In this document: piece after piece, positions 15,163 to 17,918 of the stretch
Numbering within the stretch: position 1 is the first letter of the stretch
Layout: each line of letters begins with the position of its first letter
Source of the DNA: Lyngbya aestuarii BL J
GTDB lineage: Bacteria; Cyanobacteriota; Cyanobacteriia; Cyanobacteriales; Microcoleaceae
NCBI RefSeq assembly: GCF_000478195.2
Contig: NZ_AUZM01000016.1
Coordinates: forward strand, 1-64,000
Reading direction: 5' to 3'
Length of the DNA: 64,000 nt
The notes under the pieces: generated by a model
What the model was told of the DNA's origin: nothing
What the model saw: the letters and a program-made list of their open reading frames with translations, nothing else
Databases searched by the model: none
Position numbers and translations under genes: made by a program

Positions 15163-15370
15163 AGCCCCCTCTTCCAATTCCGCCACAGGAGGCATTAGGA
15201 ATAAAAGATTAATTATTAGTTGCCCTGCCAGGGATCGAACCTGGACTCAACGAACATTCAAAGTGCGATCGGGTGCCAATTACACCACAGGGCAATGAAT
15301 GGGAATTGAACCCGTTACATCTTGTATTACAATAAGCTGTAATACTACAGAACGCAGAGACTAGGATTTG
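15163..15370 (-). repeat. Partial duplicate of the tRNA array
   Basis: This segment repeats 16990-17150 joined directly to 17341-17394. It holds the 5' half of the tRNA-Leu-like gene (15163-15190), the Gln-like tRNA, a T-arm fragment (15295-15321) and the 3' end of the tRNA-Trp-like gene (about 15355-15372). The block carrying tRNA-Ser(GCT) and the Tyr-like tRNA is missing. It lies beyond the terminator at 15385-15420 and is probably not expressed. Confidence 0.85.
15220..15294 (-). pseudogene. Degenerate tRNA-Gln-like (anticodon TTG) gene, copy 1
   Basis: The acceptor stem TGCCCTG/CAGGGCA is perfect (15221-15227 and 15288-15294) and the T-arm is CCAGG/TTCGAAC/CCTGG. The anticodon loop reads CTTTGAA (TTG, Gln). 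The anticodon stem has only about two good pairs plus a wobble, and the D-stem does not close normally, so function is doubtful. Another register gives anticodon TGA. It is near-identical to 17047-17120. Confidence 0.6.
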
Positions 15371-15384
15371 AACCGCATAGCCAT

Positions 15385-15420
15385 AAAAAACGGGGTTACA
15401 ACGAAGACGCTGTAAACCCC
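15385..15420 (-). terminator. Intrinsic terminator of the tRNA array
   Basis: On the minus strand GGGGTTTAC pairs with GTAACCCC around a short loop and is followed by six T residues (plus-strand A-run 15385-15390). It lies about 240 bases after tRNA-Ser(TGA) in the direction of transcription and separates the active-looking array from the duplicated remnant next to cphA. Confidence 0.75.
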
Positions 15421-15540
15421 ACCTAATCTACCGAATGCGAAATTTAGGTAGAAAATTGGAATCAATTTCGACAAGAATTAGAACCTGTTTTAGCTGAAAA
15501 CTAAGTCAAAGTAAATTGGTTTTTATCGAAATTTTTAACA

Positions 15541-15594
15541 TATAGCGCTACTTGAATCGGGAACAGGGAACACCGGATCAGGGAACAGTAGACT
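15541..15594. repeat. Dispersed GGGAACAGGGAACACCGG repeat
   Basis: TATAGCGCTAC followed by CGGGAACAGGGAACACCGG and ATCAGGGAACAGTAGA. It is the same family as the sequence that forms the end of the GH108 gene (6491-6597). Here it is non-coding, between the array terminator and tRNA-Ser(TGA). Confidence 0.75.
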
Positions 15595-15657
15595 GTGAAA
15601 GGGTTTTAGGATCTAGAAATGTCCTAACTTAAATGCGTAGTGCTATAAAAAAATAAA

Positions 15658-15763
15658 GGAAGATAGAGGAATCGTTCGCGAAGCGTCTCCGCAGGAGATA
15701 CCCCCAGGTTTTACCCTGCTCCCGTTTTCAAGACGGGTTGCTGTCCCTTCAGCAGTATCTTCC
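15658..15763 (-). tRNA. tRNA-Ser (anticodon TGA) with a repeat inserted in the T-loop
   Basis: The acceptor stem GGAAGAT/ATCTTCC is perfect, the anticodon arm is CCCGT-CTTGAAA-ACGGG (TGA, reads UCA) and a long class II variable arm follows. At 106 bases it is about 18-20 bases too long. The excess lies in the T-arm, where GTTCGCGAAGCGTCTCC and GCAGGAGAT, a well-known cyanobacterial short dispersed repeat, interrupt an otherwise GGGGGT...GAACGATTCCTC arm. The inserted part (GGAGA...TCTCC) is itself a hairpin. Whether it is processed or charged is unknown. Confidence 0.75.
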
Positions 15764-15769
15764 GAAAGG

Positions 15770-15844
15770 GGAGTCTGATGGGACTTGAACCCATTATTAC
15801 TGGTGTCACAGACCAGCGTCTCGACCGCTTTGACTTCAGACTCC
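15770..15844 (-). tRNA. tRNA-His (anticodon GTG), array copy
   Basis: Perfect acceptor stem GGAGTCT/AGACTCC; anticodon arm CTGGT-CTGTGAC-ACCAG gives GTG (CAC, His). T-arm ATGGG-TTCAAGT-CCCAT is good. Position 8 is G rather than the usual T and the D-arm is odd (GTC...GAC), so it diverges from normal tRNA-His. It lies 6 bases from tRNA-Ser(TGA). Confidence 0.8.
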
Positions 15845-15848
15845 ACAG

Positions 15849-15921
15849 TGGAACTGGTCGGACTTGAACCGACATCTACCAAGTTGCAAGCTTGGTGCTT
15901 TCCCAATTAAGCTACAGACCC
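15849..15921 (-). tRNA. tRNA-Ala (anticodon TGC), array copy
   Basis: Anticodon arm CCAAG-CTTGCAA-CTTGG (TGC, Ala). Acceptor GGGTCTG/CAGTTCC has one mismatch and one wobble. T8, A14 and the G18G19 pair (TTGGG) are in place and the T-arm GTCGG-TTCAAGT-CCGAC is perfect. It ends 4 bases upstream of tRNA-His in plus coordinates, showing tight array spacing. Confidence 0.85.
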
Positions 15922-15950
15922 TCATTTTTTAATTTTTAAAATGTGTTAAA

Positions 15951-15974
15951 GTGCTGACCACTCAGCCAGGTGGA
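15951..15974 (-). pseudogene. tRNA 5'-end fragment (Ser/Leu type D-arm)
   Basis: On the minus strand TCCACCTGGCTGAGTGGTCA matches the 5' part and D-arm of class II tRNAs (TGGCTGAGTGGTC). No anticodon arm follows. It is a remnant between the Ala tRNA and the heptamer array. Confidence 0.45.
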
Positions 15975-16040
15975 AACCCCTAGGTTTTATGGAACCTACA
16001 ACCAAAACTCCCGGATTTTATCGAATGTTAATCTTTGGGA

Positions 16041-16117
16041 TTTAAGGCTTGAAAGTCTAAGATTTGAGGCTTGAGATTTAAGCGTTAAGCGTTGAGCTTT
16101 AAGCTTTAAGATTTATG
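16041..16117. repeat. Heptanucleotide tandem repeat, about 11 units
   Basis: Eleven successive 7-mers with consensus (C/A)TTTAAG: TTTAAGG, CTTGAAA, GTCTAAG, ATTTGAG, GCTTGAG, ATTTAAG, CGTTAAG, CGTTGAG, CTTTAAG, CTTTAAG, ATTTATG. The array ends two bases before the 3' end of tRNA-Phe. Short tandemly repeated heptamers of this kind are typical of filamentous cyanobacteria. Confidence 0.8.
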
Positions 16118-16118
16118 C

Positions 16119-16190
16119 TCGATGGAGTTGGAATCGAACCAACAACTCATGATTTTCAGTCATGCGCTCTACCTATTGAGCTATCCATCA
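16119..16190 (-). tRNA. tRNA-Phe (anticodon GAA), array copy
   Basis: It fits the canonical numbering well: acceptor TGATGGA/TCCATCG, T8, D-stem GCTC/GAGC, loop AATAGGTA, anticodon arm CATGA-CTGAAAA-TCATG (GAA), T-arm GTTGG-TTCGATT-CCAAC, then A73 and GCA. It is the best-formed tRNA of the array and lies just downstream of the phage-like gene. Confidence 0.88.
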
Positions 16191-16289
16191 AATCCATAAA
16201 TTTAGAGGTTTTCGAGTGACCAGCACAGATTTTTGGGGTTTAAGACTGTCAAAAATTAAGTGATTTAATTGCCGACAATCTTAGATGAA

Positions 16290-16919
16290 TTAATCGGGAA
16301 TCTCAATCATTGTTCGAGCATTACTAATCGATAATACCCGGTCAACCGTTGATTGAAATTCTTCGACGAAAGTTTGGCGTTGTTCAATATTTGCAGCCAA
16401 CTCAATGGGGTCTAGCAGTTCAACGCCTTCTCGCGCTAAGAAACTATCGGCTAAAGATTGATATTTTTCAGAAGCCGCATTTTTTCCTAACACTTCCATC
16501 GCCAATTTATCCAGACGTTCTTTAACTCGTGCTTGGGCGACATCAAAATCTTTGCGAGTGCGGTTATAAACTAATAACATGGTATTCATAACCGCTTCTG
16601 AATACAGGATGAAACTTTTCATTTCAATGGCTTCTGCCACCGTCATTTCTTGACCTGCAACTGAAACGGTTATAGACGCATTTGATAACACAATTGCTCG
16701 TTTAATCATGCGCCGACGGGCAATTAACGCATCAACTTTCTGCACAGCAGCACGGGCTTGAGTGGTATAATCTTGGCGGGATTTGTAACCCGTTGGAACT
16801 TTACCAATTTCAATGACAGTAATTAAAGTATTCCCGTCTAAAGCGGCTCGGGCTGATTCAATTCGTTTTTCTAATAACGTTAATTCTGCTAAGGCATCGG
16901 TTACGGTCATTTGAGTCAT
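16290..16919 (-). CDS. Phage-like hypothetical protein inside the tRNA array
   Basis: From ATG 16919, preceded by AGAGGTGG, this is a 209-residue protein (a GTG at 16928 would add three residues). It is largely helical: LLEKRIESARAALDG, VDALIARRRMIKRAIVLSNA, then AGQEMTVAEAIEMK, and a C-terminal EEFQSTVDRVLSISNARTMIEI. The pattern of a helical hairpin, an LIxRRxxIKxAIxxSNA segment and a final VDxxLSxSNAxTxIEI segment resembles DIP1984-like and phage proteins seen from memory; no biochemical function is known to me. It is the only protein gene in the array, co-oriented with the tRNAs and probably co-transcribed. Its presence suggests the array came from a phage or plasmid; that is inference. 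Confidence 0.75.
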   Translation of the reverse strand: MTQMTVTDALAELTLLEKRIESARAALDGNTLITVIEIGKVPTGYKSRQDYTTQARAAVQKVDALIARRRMIKRAIVLSNASITVSVAGQEMTVAEAIEMKSFILYSEAVMNTMLLVYNRTRKDFDVAQARVKERLDKLAMEVLGKNAASEKYQSLADSFLAREGVELLDPIELAANIEQRQTFVEEFQSTVDRVLSISNARTMIEIPD

Positions 16920-16941
16920 ATTATCCACCTCTTTTGTTTAA

Positions 16942-17018
16942 TCCTCCTGACAGGATTTGAACCTGCAAAATAGAACAGATTTTAAGTCTGCCCCCTCTTC
17001 CAATTCCGCCACAGGAGG
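16942..17018 (-). tRNA. tRNA-Leu-like (anticodon TAA) without a long variable arm
   Basis: Perfect acceptor CCTCCTG/CAGGAGG with discriminator A; D-arm GGCGGAATTGGAAGA; anticodon stem CAGA-CTTAAAA-TCTG (TAA, Leu); T-arm GCAGG-TTCAAAT-CCTGT. The variable region is only about 8 bases, whereas genuine tRNA-Leu has a long arm, so charging identity is uncertain. Its 5' half is duplicated at 15163-15190. Confidence 0.72.
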
Positions 17019-17046
17019 TATTAGGAATAAAAAATTAATTATTGGT

Positions 17047-17120
17047 TGCCCCGCCAGGGATCGAACCTGGACTCAACGAACATTCAAAGTGCGATCGGGT
17101 GCCAATTACACCACAGGGCA
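17047..17120 (-). pseudogene. Degenerate tRNA-Gln-like (anticodon TTG) gene, copy 2
   Basis: Same sequence as 15220-15294 except for one acceptor change giving a T-G wobble. The loop CTTTGAA gives TTG but the anticodon stem is poor. A T-arm fragment of a further tRNA (GAATGGGAATTGAACCCG) follows at 17122-17140, also present in copy 1. Confidence 0.6.
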
Positions 17121-17156
17121 ATGAATGGGAATTGAACCCGTTACATCTGTCAAAGG

Positions 17157-17240
17157 CGGAGAGCAGTGGACTCGAACCACAAGCAGTTAAACTCCATCTG
17201 TTTAGCAAACAGCACCCATCCCCTGACGGGTTTACTCTCC
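17157..17240 (-). tRNA. tRNA-Ser (anticodon GCT), array copy
   Basis: GGAGAGT/GCTCTCC acceptor (one T-G pair), anticodon arm CTGT-TTGCTAA-ACAG (GCT, reads AGC), a class II variable arm of about 15 bases (ATGGAGTTTAACTGC) and T-arm TGTGG-TTCGAGT-CCACT. The discriminator G and following CC are encoded. This tRNA is absent from the partial duplicate near cphA. Confidence 0.82.
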
Positions 17241-17250
17241 ATCGATTTGG

Positions 17251-17333
17251 TAAGCCGGGCACCGATTCGCACCTGCAATGCTTTTAGCGGCTGTTTTACA
17301 GACAGTTGCCCTCTCTGATAGGCGAGCCGACCC
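17251..17333 (-). tRNA. tRNA-Tyr-like (anticodon GTA), degenerate
   Basis: Anticodon arm CTGT-CTGTAAA-ACAG gives GTA (UAC, Tyr) and a class II variable arm (CCGCTAAAAGCATT) follows, as expected for tRNA-Tyr. The acceptor GGGTCGG/CCGGCTT pairs only with several wobbles, and the T-arm (GCAGG-TGCGAAT-CGGTG) is badly paired. It may be a decaying gene. Confidence 0.55.
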
Positions 17334-17371
17334 AAACTGTTTGTATTACAATAAGCTGTAATACTACAGAA

Positions 17372-17443
17372 CGCAGAGACTAGGATTTGAACCTAGATCC
17401 TCGGTTTTGGAGACCGATATGTTAGCCGTTACACCATCCCTAC
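17372..17443 (-). tRNA. tRNA-Trp (anticodon CCA), array copy
   Basis: Acceptor GTAGGGA/TCTCTGC (two wobbles), D-stem GTGT/ACAT with loop AACGGCTA, anticodon arm TCGGT-CTCCAAA-ACCGA (CCA, Trp), T-arm CTAGG-TTCAAAT-CCTAG. All canonical elements fit. It starts 3 bases from the 3' end of the next tRNA. Confidence 0.83.
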
Positions 17444-17446
17444 AAG

Positions 17447-17518
17447 TGGCAGCGGCGGGATTTGCACCCGCAACAACCCGGTTATGAGCCGGGGGCTTTA
17501 CTCTTAAGCTACGCTGCG
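17447..17518 (-). tRNA. tRNA with CAT anticodon (Met or Ile2), array copy
   Basis: CGCAGCG/CGCTGCC acceptor with a C-C mismatch at position 1-72, T8, D-arm GCTTAAGAGTAAAGC, anticodon arm CCCGG-CTCATAA-CCGGG, T-arm GCGGG-TGCAAAT-CCCGC. The 1-72 mismatch recalls initiator tRNA, but the stem lacks three G-C pairs in initiator order. Elongator Met or lysidine-type Ile cannot be told apart from sequence alone. Confidence 0.75.
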
Positions 17519-17563
17519 TTGTTTGCAGTCCAACGCCTATTGGGCAACCTGGACTCGGTGAGC

Positions 17564-17636
17564 AGCCTTGACGGGAGTTGCACCCGATCCTCTATGCTTG
17601 AAAGGCACAGCGACTTCTCTAATTGTCCACAAGGCT
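17564..17636 (-). tRNA. tRNA-Glu (anticodon TTC), first gene of the array
   Basis: Perfect acceptor AGCCTTG/CAAGGCT, anticodon arm TGTGC-CTTTCAA-GCATA (TTC, Glu). The D-loop lacks the usual G18G19 pair and the T-loop is TGCAACT, so it diverges from the normal housekeeping tRNA-Glu. It is the most upstream tRNA in transcription order. Confidence 0.7.
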
Positions 17637-17918
17637 ATGAGCGAGGGTGATGGGATTTATTGGCGTCGCCTCGGCGTAACACATACCCACAATTTCGGTG
17701 TTCTACATCGGAAAAATGTAGTATAATATTCAGTTGTCTAGGTGCAGATGGCTTGCTCAATCAAGCTTTATCGCTTTCCTTTGCTTGCCATGTTTTTATA
17801 CTACAAACATACTACATAAATTGTCAAGGGGTGTGGCAAAAATTTTTTGATCCCATTCTTGTACCTCGGGGACAAATACGGGGAAAATCCTTTAATTCTG
17901 GGGTTTGTGGAGTGATCA
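17637..17918. promoter_or_regulatory. Region upstream of the tRNA array
   Basis: No protein gene is supported. A GGCGTCGCCTCGGCGTAAC repeat (17664-17682) belongs to the same family as the sequence inserted in tnpB. CTACAT/ATGTAG (17703-17708, 17715-17720) forms a hairpin. TATACT on the minus strand at 17720-17725 is a possible -10 box for the array, but no convincing -35 partner is seen. Confidence 0.4.

Follow-up and report, generated by a model that had tools for sequence, protein, structure and literature searches.

A small dispersed repeat in the T-loop of an array tRNA-Ser(UGA) gene of Lyngbya aestuarii, at an insertion junction that recurs in cyanobacterial array tRNAs

In 2008, Elhai et al. 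reportedly described small dispersed repeats in cyanobacteria, SDR5 among them, and STRR/SDR insertions lodge in genes for cyanobacterial structural RNAs, for example rnpB. SDR5 inserts between nucleotides 3 and 4 of the HIP1 sequence (GCGATCGC; GCG/ATCGC, the slash marking the point of entry) (PMC4390886). In Anabaena PCC 7120, an array of tRNA genes, the trn operon, is kept silent until translational stress by the repressor TrcR, whose footprinted site, TGTAGTAT, overlaps the −10 element TAGTAT (PMC10272220). The elbow of a tRNA is held by the contacts U54–A58, U55–G18, and C56–G19 (PMC7912444), and the contact between the D and T arms matters to bacterial RNase P (PMC4919922). Here we analyze a 64,000-nt stretch of the genome of Lyngbya aestuarii BL J (the window), in which the last gene of a tRNA array carries a small repeat within its T-loop. 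The features of the locus, all on the minus strand, are listed below.

15658–15763, minus strand: tRNA-Ser(UGA) gene with T-loop interruption, 106 nt, no encoded CCA (sequence, ARAGORN after excision, fold)
15675–15699, minus strand: 25-nt T-loop insert ATCTCCTGCGGAGACGCTTCGCGAA, a double hairpin probably of SDR5 type (comparison with the empty site L010; dispersed copies)
15701–15705, minus strand: 5′ strand of the T-stem, GGGGG, pairing with CCTCT at 15665–15669 (sequence, fold)
15721–15737, minus strand: anticodon arm CCCGT-CTTGAAA-ACGGG (sequence)
15728–15730, minus strand: anticodon TGA (sequence; ARAGORN on the excised sequence, anticodon position 34)
15541–15647, minus strand: MITE-like repeat of ~107 bp, directly downstream of the Ser gene (blastn of own contigs)
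15219–17636, minus strand: degraded trn-operon-type tRNA array with Glu, Met, Trp, ..., Leu, Phe, Ala, His, and Ser, and a partial array repeat after Ser (ARAGORN, Rfam)
17798–17827, minus strand: promoter of the array, TTGACA-18-TAGTAT, bearing a pair of TGTAGTAT boxes that resemble the TrcR operator (sequence, 0 expected)

Read on the minus strand, the gene has an acceptor stem GGAAGAT/ATCTTCC, a long variable arm, and a T-arm GGGGG-T54-ATCTCCTGCGGAGACGCTTCGCGAA-C56-G57-A58-T-T-CCTCT that runs into the acceptor strand ATCTTCC. The insert stands between T54 (15700) and C56 (15674) in place of T55, leaving the T-stem pairable. The resulting T-loop of 31 nt is 24 nt longer and retains U54, C56, G57, and A58 but not U55, and thus departs from the 7-nt loop with U54, U55, C56, R57, and A58 of a functional tRNA. 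With the insert in place, neither ARAGORN nor Rfam calls the gene, and Rfam gave no match to tRNA-Sec or any other RNA family at the site. Once the insert is excised, ARAGORN calls tRNA-Ser(TGA), and the acceptor, D, anticodon, and T stems are all paired in this call and in the fold. For the full 106-nt RNA, the predicted fold is a cloverleaf whose T-arm is extended (−41.5 kcal/mol, z = −3.5). A preliminary description of the locus had placed a tRNA-Ser(TGA) at 15658–15763 and expected its T-loop contacts to be blocked; coordinates, strand, and identity are borne out, and the insert does interrupt the U54, U55, and C56 contacts. The 20-base repeat that it had reported in the T-loop is present, at a length of 25 nt, and the 17-mer noted for it is the reverse complement of part of the insert.

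The orthologous locus L010 provides a clean empty site, GGGGGTTCGATTCC, with a single T where the insert stands, and filled and empty sites differ cleanly by +24 nt. Contig C83 of the same genome holds a diverged paralog of the gene, its anticodon arm broken, with an identical insert. An assembly or sequencing error, which the preliminary description had named as a possible refutation, is excluded by this diverged paralog and by the clean empty sites in orthologs, and the same site is found in other genomes as well. Compared with its ancestor-like paralog, the window copy differs at three compensated pairs, one in the D-stem and two in the anticodon stem. To judge from the sequences, these look like continuing selection on the gene, and gene conversion could also explain them.

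The insert had been taken for a short dispersed repeat able to form a hairpin, and the genome agrees: the 18-mer core of the insert occurs at 23 places at up to 3 mismatches (reversed control, 0). Among 390 genomes of the class, 35 contain its consensus, CTCCTNCGGAGACGCTNCGCGAACG, again with none in the reversed control. Compensatory changes hold the hairpins, and the stem of hairpin 1 occurs as CTCC/GGAG, TTCC/GGAA, GTCC/GGAC, TGCC/GGCA, and CGCC/GGCG. Across 23 SDR5-type T-arms, 97% of cells pair, and the covariation score for the whole structure, T-stem included, is 0.484, against 0.171 for shuffled alignments and at most 0.129 for slid partners; within hairpin 1, 98% of cells are paired and three of the four pairs show double changes. 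The insert is thus a dispersed cyanobacterial small repeat of 24–25 nt with two small hairpins, probably SDR5, a presumed name based in part on the statement on HIP1 insertion.

Like SDR5 and other small dispersed repeats, the element is about 24 nt long, dispersed in many cyanobacterial genomes, built of compensated hairpins, precise in its entry at a CG-containing site, and present in nested copies. In contrast to SDR5 as described, it does not occupy HIP1 at this locus, where it has entered GTTCGA in the T-loop, a site also used by a second repeat family, B, and by other repeat sequences. Only a few copies elsewhere split GCGAT/CG (e.g., L084, L086, L092), those at L084 and L086 reading GCGAT-[T CTCC...GAA]-CGC. 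The rnpB insertions resemble the present case in that small repeats occupy loops of a structural RNA gene, but they lie in a peripheral loop, whereas here the universally conserved T-loop is entered at one junction in many tRNAs.

The proposal that the same repeat be sought in other cyanobacterial tRNA genes proved fruitful. Excision of the repeat restores tRNA genes for Cys, Gly, Gln, Glu, Trp, Leu, Val, Ala, and Ser in other cyanobacteria, and the T-loop inserts in these genes share one junction (T54/C56) and one orientation. Of 52 distinct SDR5-type sites sampled without regard to context, six fall within the T-loops of tRNA genes, five recognized through ARAGORN and the sixth a Ser-GCT gene (L102) that also has a D-arm insert (P ~2e-10, taking tRNA genes as 0.15% of the genome). 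Family B, ACCGCTTCGCGGAAGCAAGCTA, has 18 copies in eight genomes, 18/18 of them in T-loops. A T-loop-exclusive repeat B, which holds in those eight genomes, fails class-wide, where its relatives are also dispersed and 8/30 copies lie in T-loops. A generic scan of the fetched loci for long T-loops yielded 65 curated inserts of 20–27 nt. Its extension to further loci gave 103 distinct candidates, mostly 20–29 nt and in array tRNAs, against 2 in reversed and 3 in block-shuffled controls, a figure that is not a prevalence because the loci were largely fetched for holding arrays or repeats. Inserts are also present in five of 13 plasmid arrays found by tRNA similarity, including those of Nostoc TCL26-01, Nostoc PCC 7524, and Calothrix NIES-4101. 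The inserts follow the plan T54-A-hairpin-A-hairpin-(A or T)A-C56, with variable stem sequences; on sequence grounds, several unrelated repeats of one architecture use the T54/C56 junction. Some inserts are common to congeneric species, namely Gln-TTG in G165, G464, and G308 and Gly-GCC in G078 and G503, and the Gln pair of congeners shows a compensated anticodon pair. No T-loop-inserted copy was present among viral contigs, and we discarded a phage origin.

Other tRNA loops also hold small repeats. In three genera, array tRNA-Ser(GCT) genes (L237, L102, L125) have a different 24-nt double-hairpin insert, GCAACTTCGTTGAGCTTCGCTAAC, in the D-arm, alone or alongside a T-loop insert. In Leptolyngbya-like genomes (L154, L167, L172), tandem tRNA-Ala(CGC) genes carry SDR-like inserts in the anticodon loop (GCG/ATCGC) and the T-loop, with the first copy intact in L154 and L167.

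Taken alone, the window locus is an ordinary example of a mobile repeat sitting in a redundant tRNA gene. The hot spot, with its conserved junction, several repeat families, and many cyanobacterial arrays, appears to be undescribed; we found no report of it in the literature searched, which did not cover the original SDR description.

These observations suggest how the insertions may arise. We propose that an SDR-type element of ~24 nt with two hairpins entered the T-loop of the last array tRNA gene, and that such elements enter the apex of hairpins bearing a TTC(G/A) loop. The tRNA T-loop, G53-T54-T55/C56-R57-A58, would suit such a target, which would account for repeated hits on T-loops at a single junction and in one orientation. 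Inserts would themselves be struck within their own TTCG hairpin loops. Nested insertions do lie at the same junction in the TTCG loop of another insert in L103 (Ala-TGC) and L336 (Arg-CCG), and also in two plasmid arrays, in the Tyr gene of PCC 7524 (L326) and the His gene of NIES-22 (L327). Copies outside tRNAs often occupy T-arm-like hairpins (L085, L095, L098, L109). Over all SDR5 sites, flanking stems of at least 5 bp occur in 15% versus 4%, and since this excess is modest, hairpin targeting is not universal for SDR5 copies. On entry, T55 would be replaced or converted and the loop would gain 24 nt. At HIP1 and at certain hairpin sites, the T preceding the element is retained; at most tRNA and nested sites it has become A. 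The idea that T55-to-A is a selected compensation is weakened by nested insertions outside the T-loop with the same T-to-A junction, and because those sites share the change, it probably reflects the insertion process or the ends of the element rather than tRNA function.

The setting of the gene is that of a spare tRNA. An intact, normal tRNA-Ser(UGA) is present on contig C38 of the same genome, which makes the window copy redundant, and the existence of this housekeeping gene would explain why a damaged tRNA is tolerated. The insert-bearing gene closes an array that has decayed, with several truncated tRNAs and part of the array repeated downstream. The order ...Ala-His-Ser(UGA) is common to the arrays of relatives (L014–L016, L034–L036). 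As in the trn operon of Anabaena PCC 7120 (PMC10272220), the window holds a tRNA array that ends in Ala-His-Ser(UGA), has a TAGTAT element overlapped by TGTAGTAT, keeps its order in relatives, and is redundant with housekeeping genes; in contrast to that operon, it is short, degraded, and includes an insert-bearing tRNA. By this likeness in sequence, the window array would normally be repressed. Contig C9 of the same genome bears two further tRNAs with T-loop inserts (Lys-TTT and Gly-TCC). The MITE-like repeat at 15541–15647 is missing at the paralogous C83 locus and has copies on C9.

Several other features of the arrays were observed. At 15219–15294 and 17043–17120 (minus strand), ARAGORN reports tRNA-Ser(tga), but the loop CTTTGAA suits a decayed tRNA-Gln(TTG). 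These two genes duplicate one another and derive from the partial array repeat. A 212-aa open reading frame within the array (16290–16928, minus strand), with no match in Pfam or NCBIfam, is also found, disrupted, in the C83 copy. Between the tRNA-Phe paralogs of C83 (L078, ~880–950) and the window (16117–16191), almost all of the anticodon stem and the T-stem is different, yet these stems are perfectly paired in each copy and the flanks are ~90–96% identical, a pattern that would fit either rapid divergence with compensation or conversion. Almost every plasmid trn array in Nostocales follows directly on a gene for an HNH endonuclease of ~178 aa (L319–L331; e.g., L319:897–1433), which matches Pfam HNH/HNH_5 and is distantly similar to the HNH domain of IscB/Cas9. 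This protein may serve the array as a homing nuclease.

Given the contacts that hold the elbow, a 31-nt T-loop without U55 should impair both the elbow and the D–T contact. Insertion would break U54–A58, U55–G18, and C56–G19, leaving a tRNA that is most likely poor or dead, and T-loop hits would survive only in redundant array tRNAs. Insert-bearing genes were indeed seen only in arrays, in tandem Ala-CGC copies beside an intact gene, or in one isolated relic (L317), and context-free searches found no inserts in housekeeping tRNAs. Such restriction to redundant genes is what would be expected if insertion harms essential tRNAs. We therefore favor, with a probability of roughly two in three (0.68), the reading that a small mobile repeat, targeting TTC(G/A) hairpins, hit the T-loop of a redundant, normally repressed array tRNA whose product is likely poor or dead. 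The preliminary description had recognized the tRNA, the repeat, and the lost contacts, and had overlooked the redundancy of the array, the recurrent hot spot, and the several repeat families. Among the outcomes that it had listed, the confinement to redundant tRNAs favors an impaired tRNA, while an insert that is processed, or that has a new role, keeps some weight because the insert-bearing genes are structurally intact.

This intactness speaks for functional tRNAs that keep the insert, an array class with a double-hairpin T-loop that works, perhaps only when translational stress lifts repression of the trn operon. In insert-bearing array tRNAs, 1.62 of the 12 acceptor and anticodon pairs are unpaired, compared with 1.83 in uninserted neighbors, although both groups were preselected by passing ARAGORN, which limits the test. 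All 18 B-bearing genes retain a recognizable cloverleaf. The single position, the single architecture with its covarying stems, and the Gln-TTG and Gly-GCC inserts that congeneric species have in common point the same way. However, dispersed SDR copies covary too, T55 is nearly always lost, and no housekeeping tRNA with an insert turned up in context-free searches. Moreover, some insert-bearing tRNAs carry extra inserts in the D-arm or anticodon loop, and these double inserts resemble decay. Inserted and empty alleles of Arg-CCG have the same anticodon-stem and T-loop variants, so that insert presence departs from the gene tree. An insert that predates the split of the orthologs and is held by selection was rejected on these mixed alleles, which repeated insertion or conversion fits better. 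As inserted and empty alleles share stem variants, inserts appear to turn over, by gain and loss or by conversion, more quickly than the tRNAs diverge, and the intactness of the stems may then just mean that most inserts are young. We consider functional insert-bearing tRNAs improbable. The wider proposal that stress-induced arrays express working tRNAs with a conserved T-loop double hairpin, either kept or processed away from the RNA, and overlooked by tRNA finders, seems to us unlikely.

Removal at the RNA level would make the insert a mini-intron, cut out at its hairpins and rejoined, or leaving a nicked tRNA. The ends of the insert are near-repeats (A...A, and TAC...TAC in several families), and so an excision that left T54-A-C56 would bring the loop back to 7 nt; the length range is also narrow, at 20–27 nt. 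Known tRNA introns, whether bacterial group I or archaeal bulge-helix-bulge introns (some of the latter in the T-loop), likewise sit at a fixed position in a tRNA loop. The inserts differ from them in being 20–27 nt long, lacking a group I core, and having been found in redundant genes only, and any splicing of them would be hypothetical. Group I and II introns are far longer and self-splicing, and we know of no such splicing endonuclease in bacteria. Restriction to redundant genes would be unexpected given efficient removal, and the same repeats also occur outside tRNAs. We regard a mini-intron as highly improbable. Least credible is an untargeted origin, in which the gene would be just a pseudogene and its repeat a product of chance or of assembly. 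The array is degraded and its tRNAs truncated and repeated, but this reading is already contradicted by recurrence at the same junction and orientation in ~100 array tRNAs of many genera, against 2–3 in controls, and by the identical insert on C83.

Few RNA regions are as conserved as the T-loop, yet, taking the inserts as mobile repeats in redundant array tRNAs, many such tRNAs across cyanobacteria have it broken at a single defined junction. This hot spot suggests that some of the smallest mobile elements known have a structural target, the loop of a hairpin. T-loop inserts also account for annotation gaps in tRNA arrays, where standard tRNA finders miss such genes, and the insert-bearing tRNAs offer a natural test of how much change in the T-loop can be tolerated before a tRNA fails.
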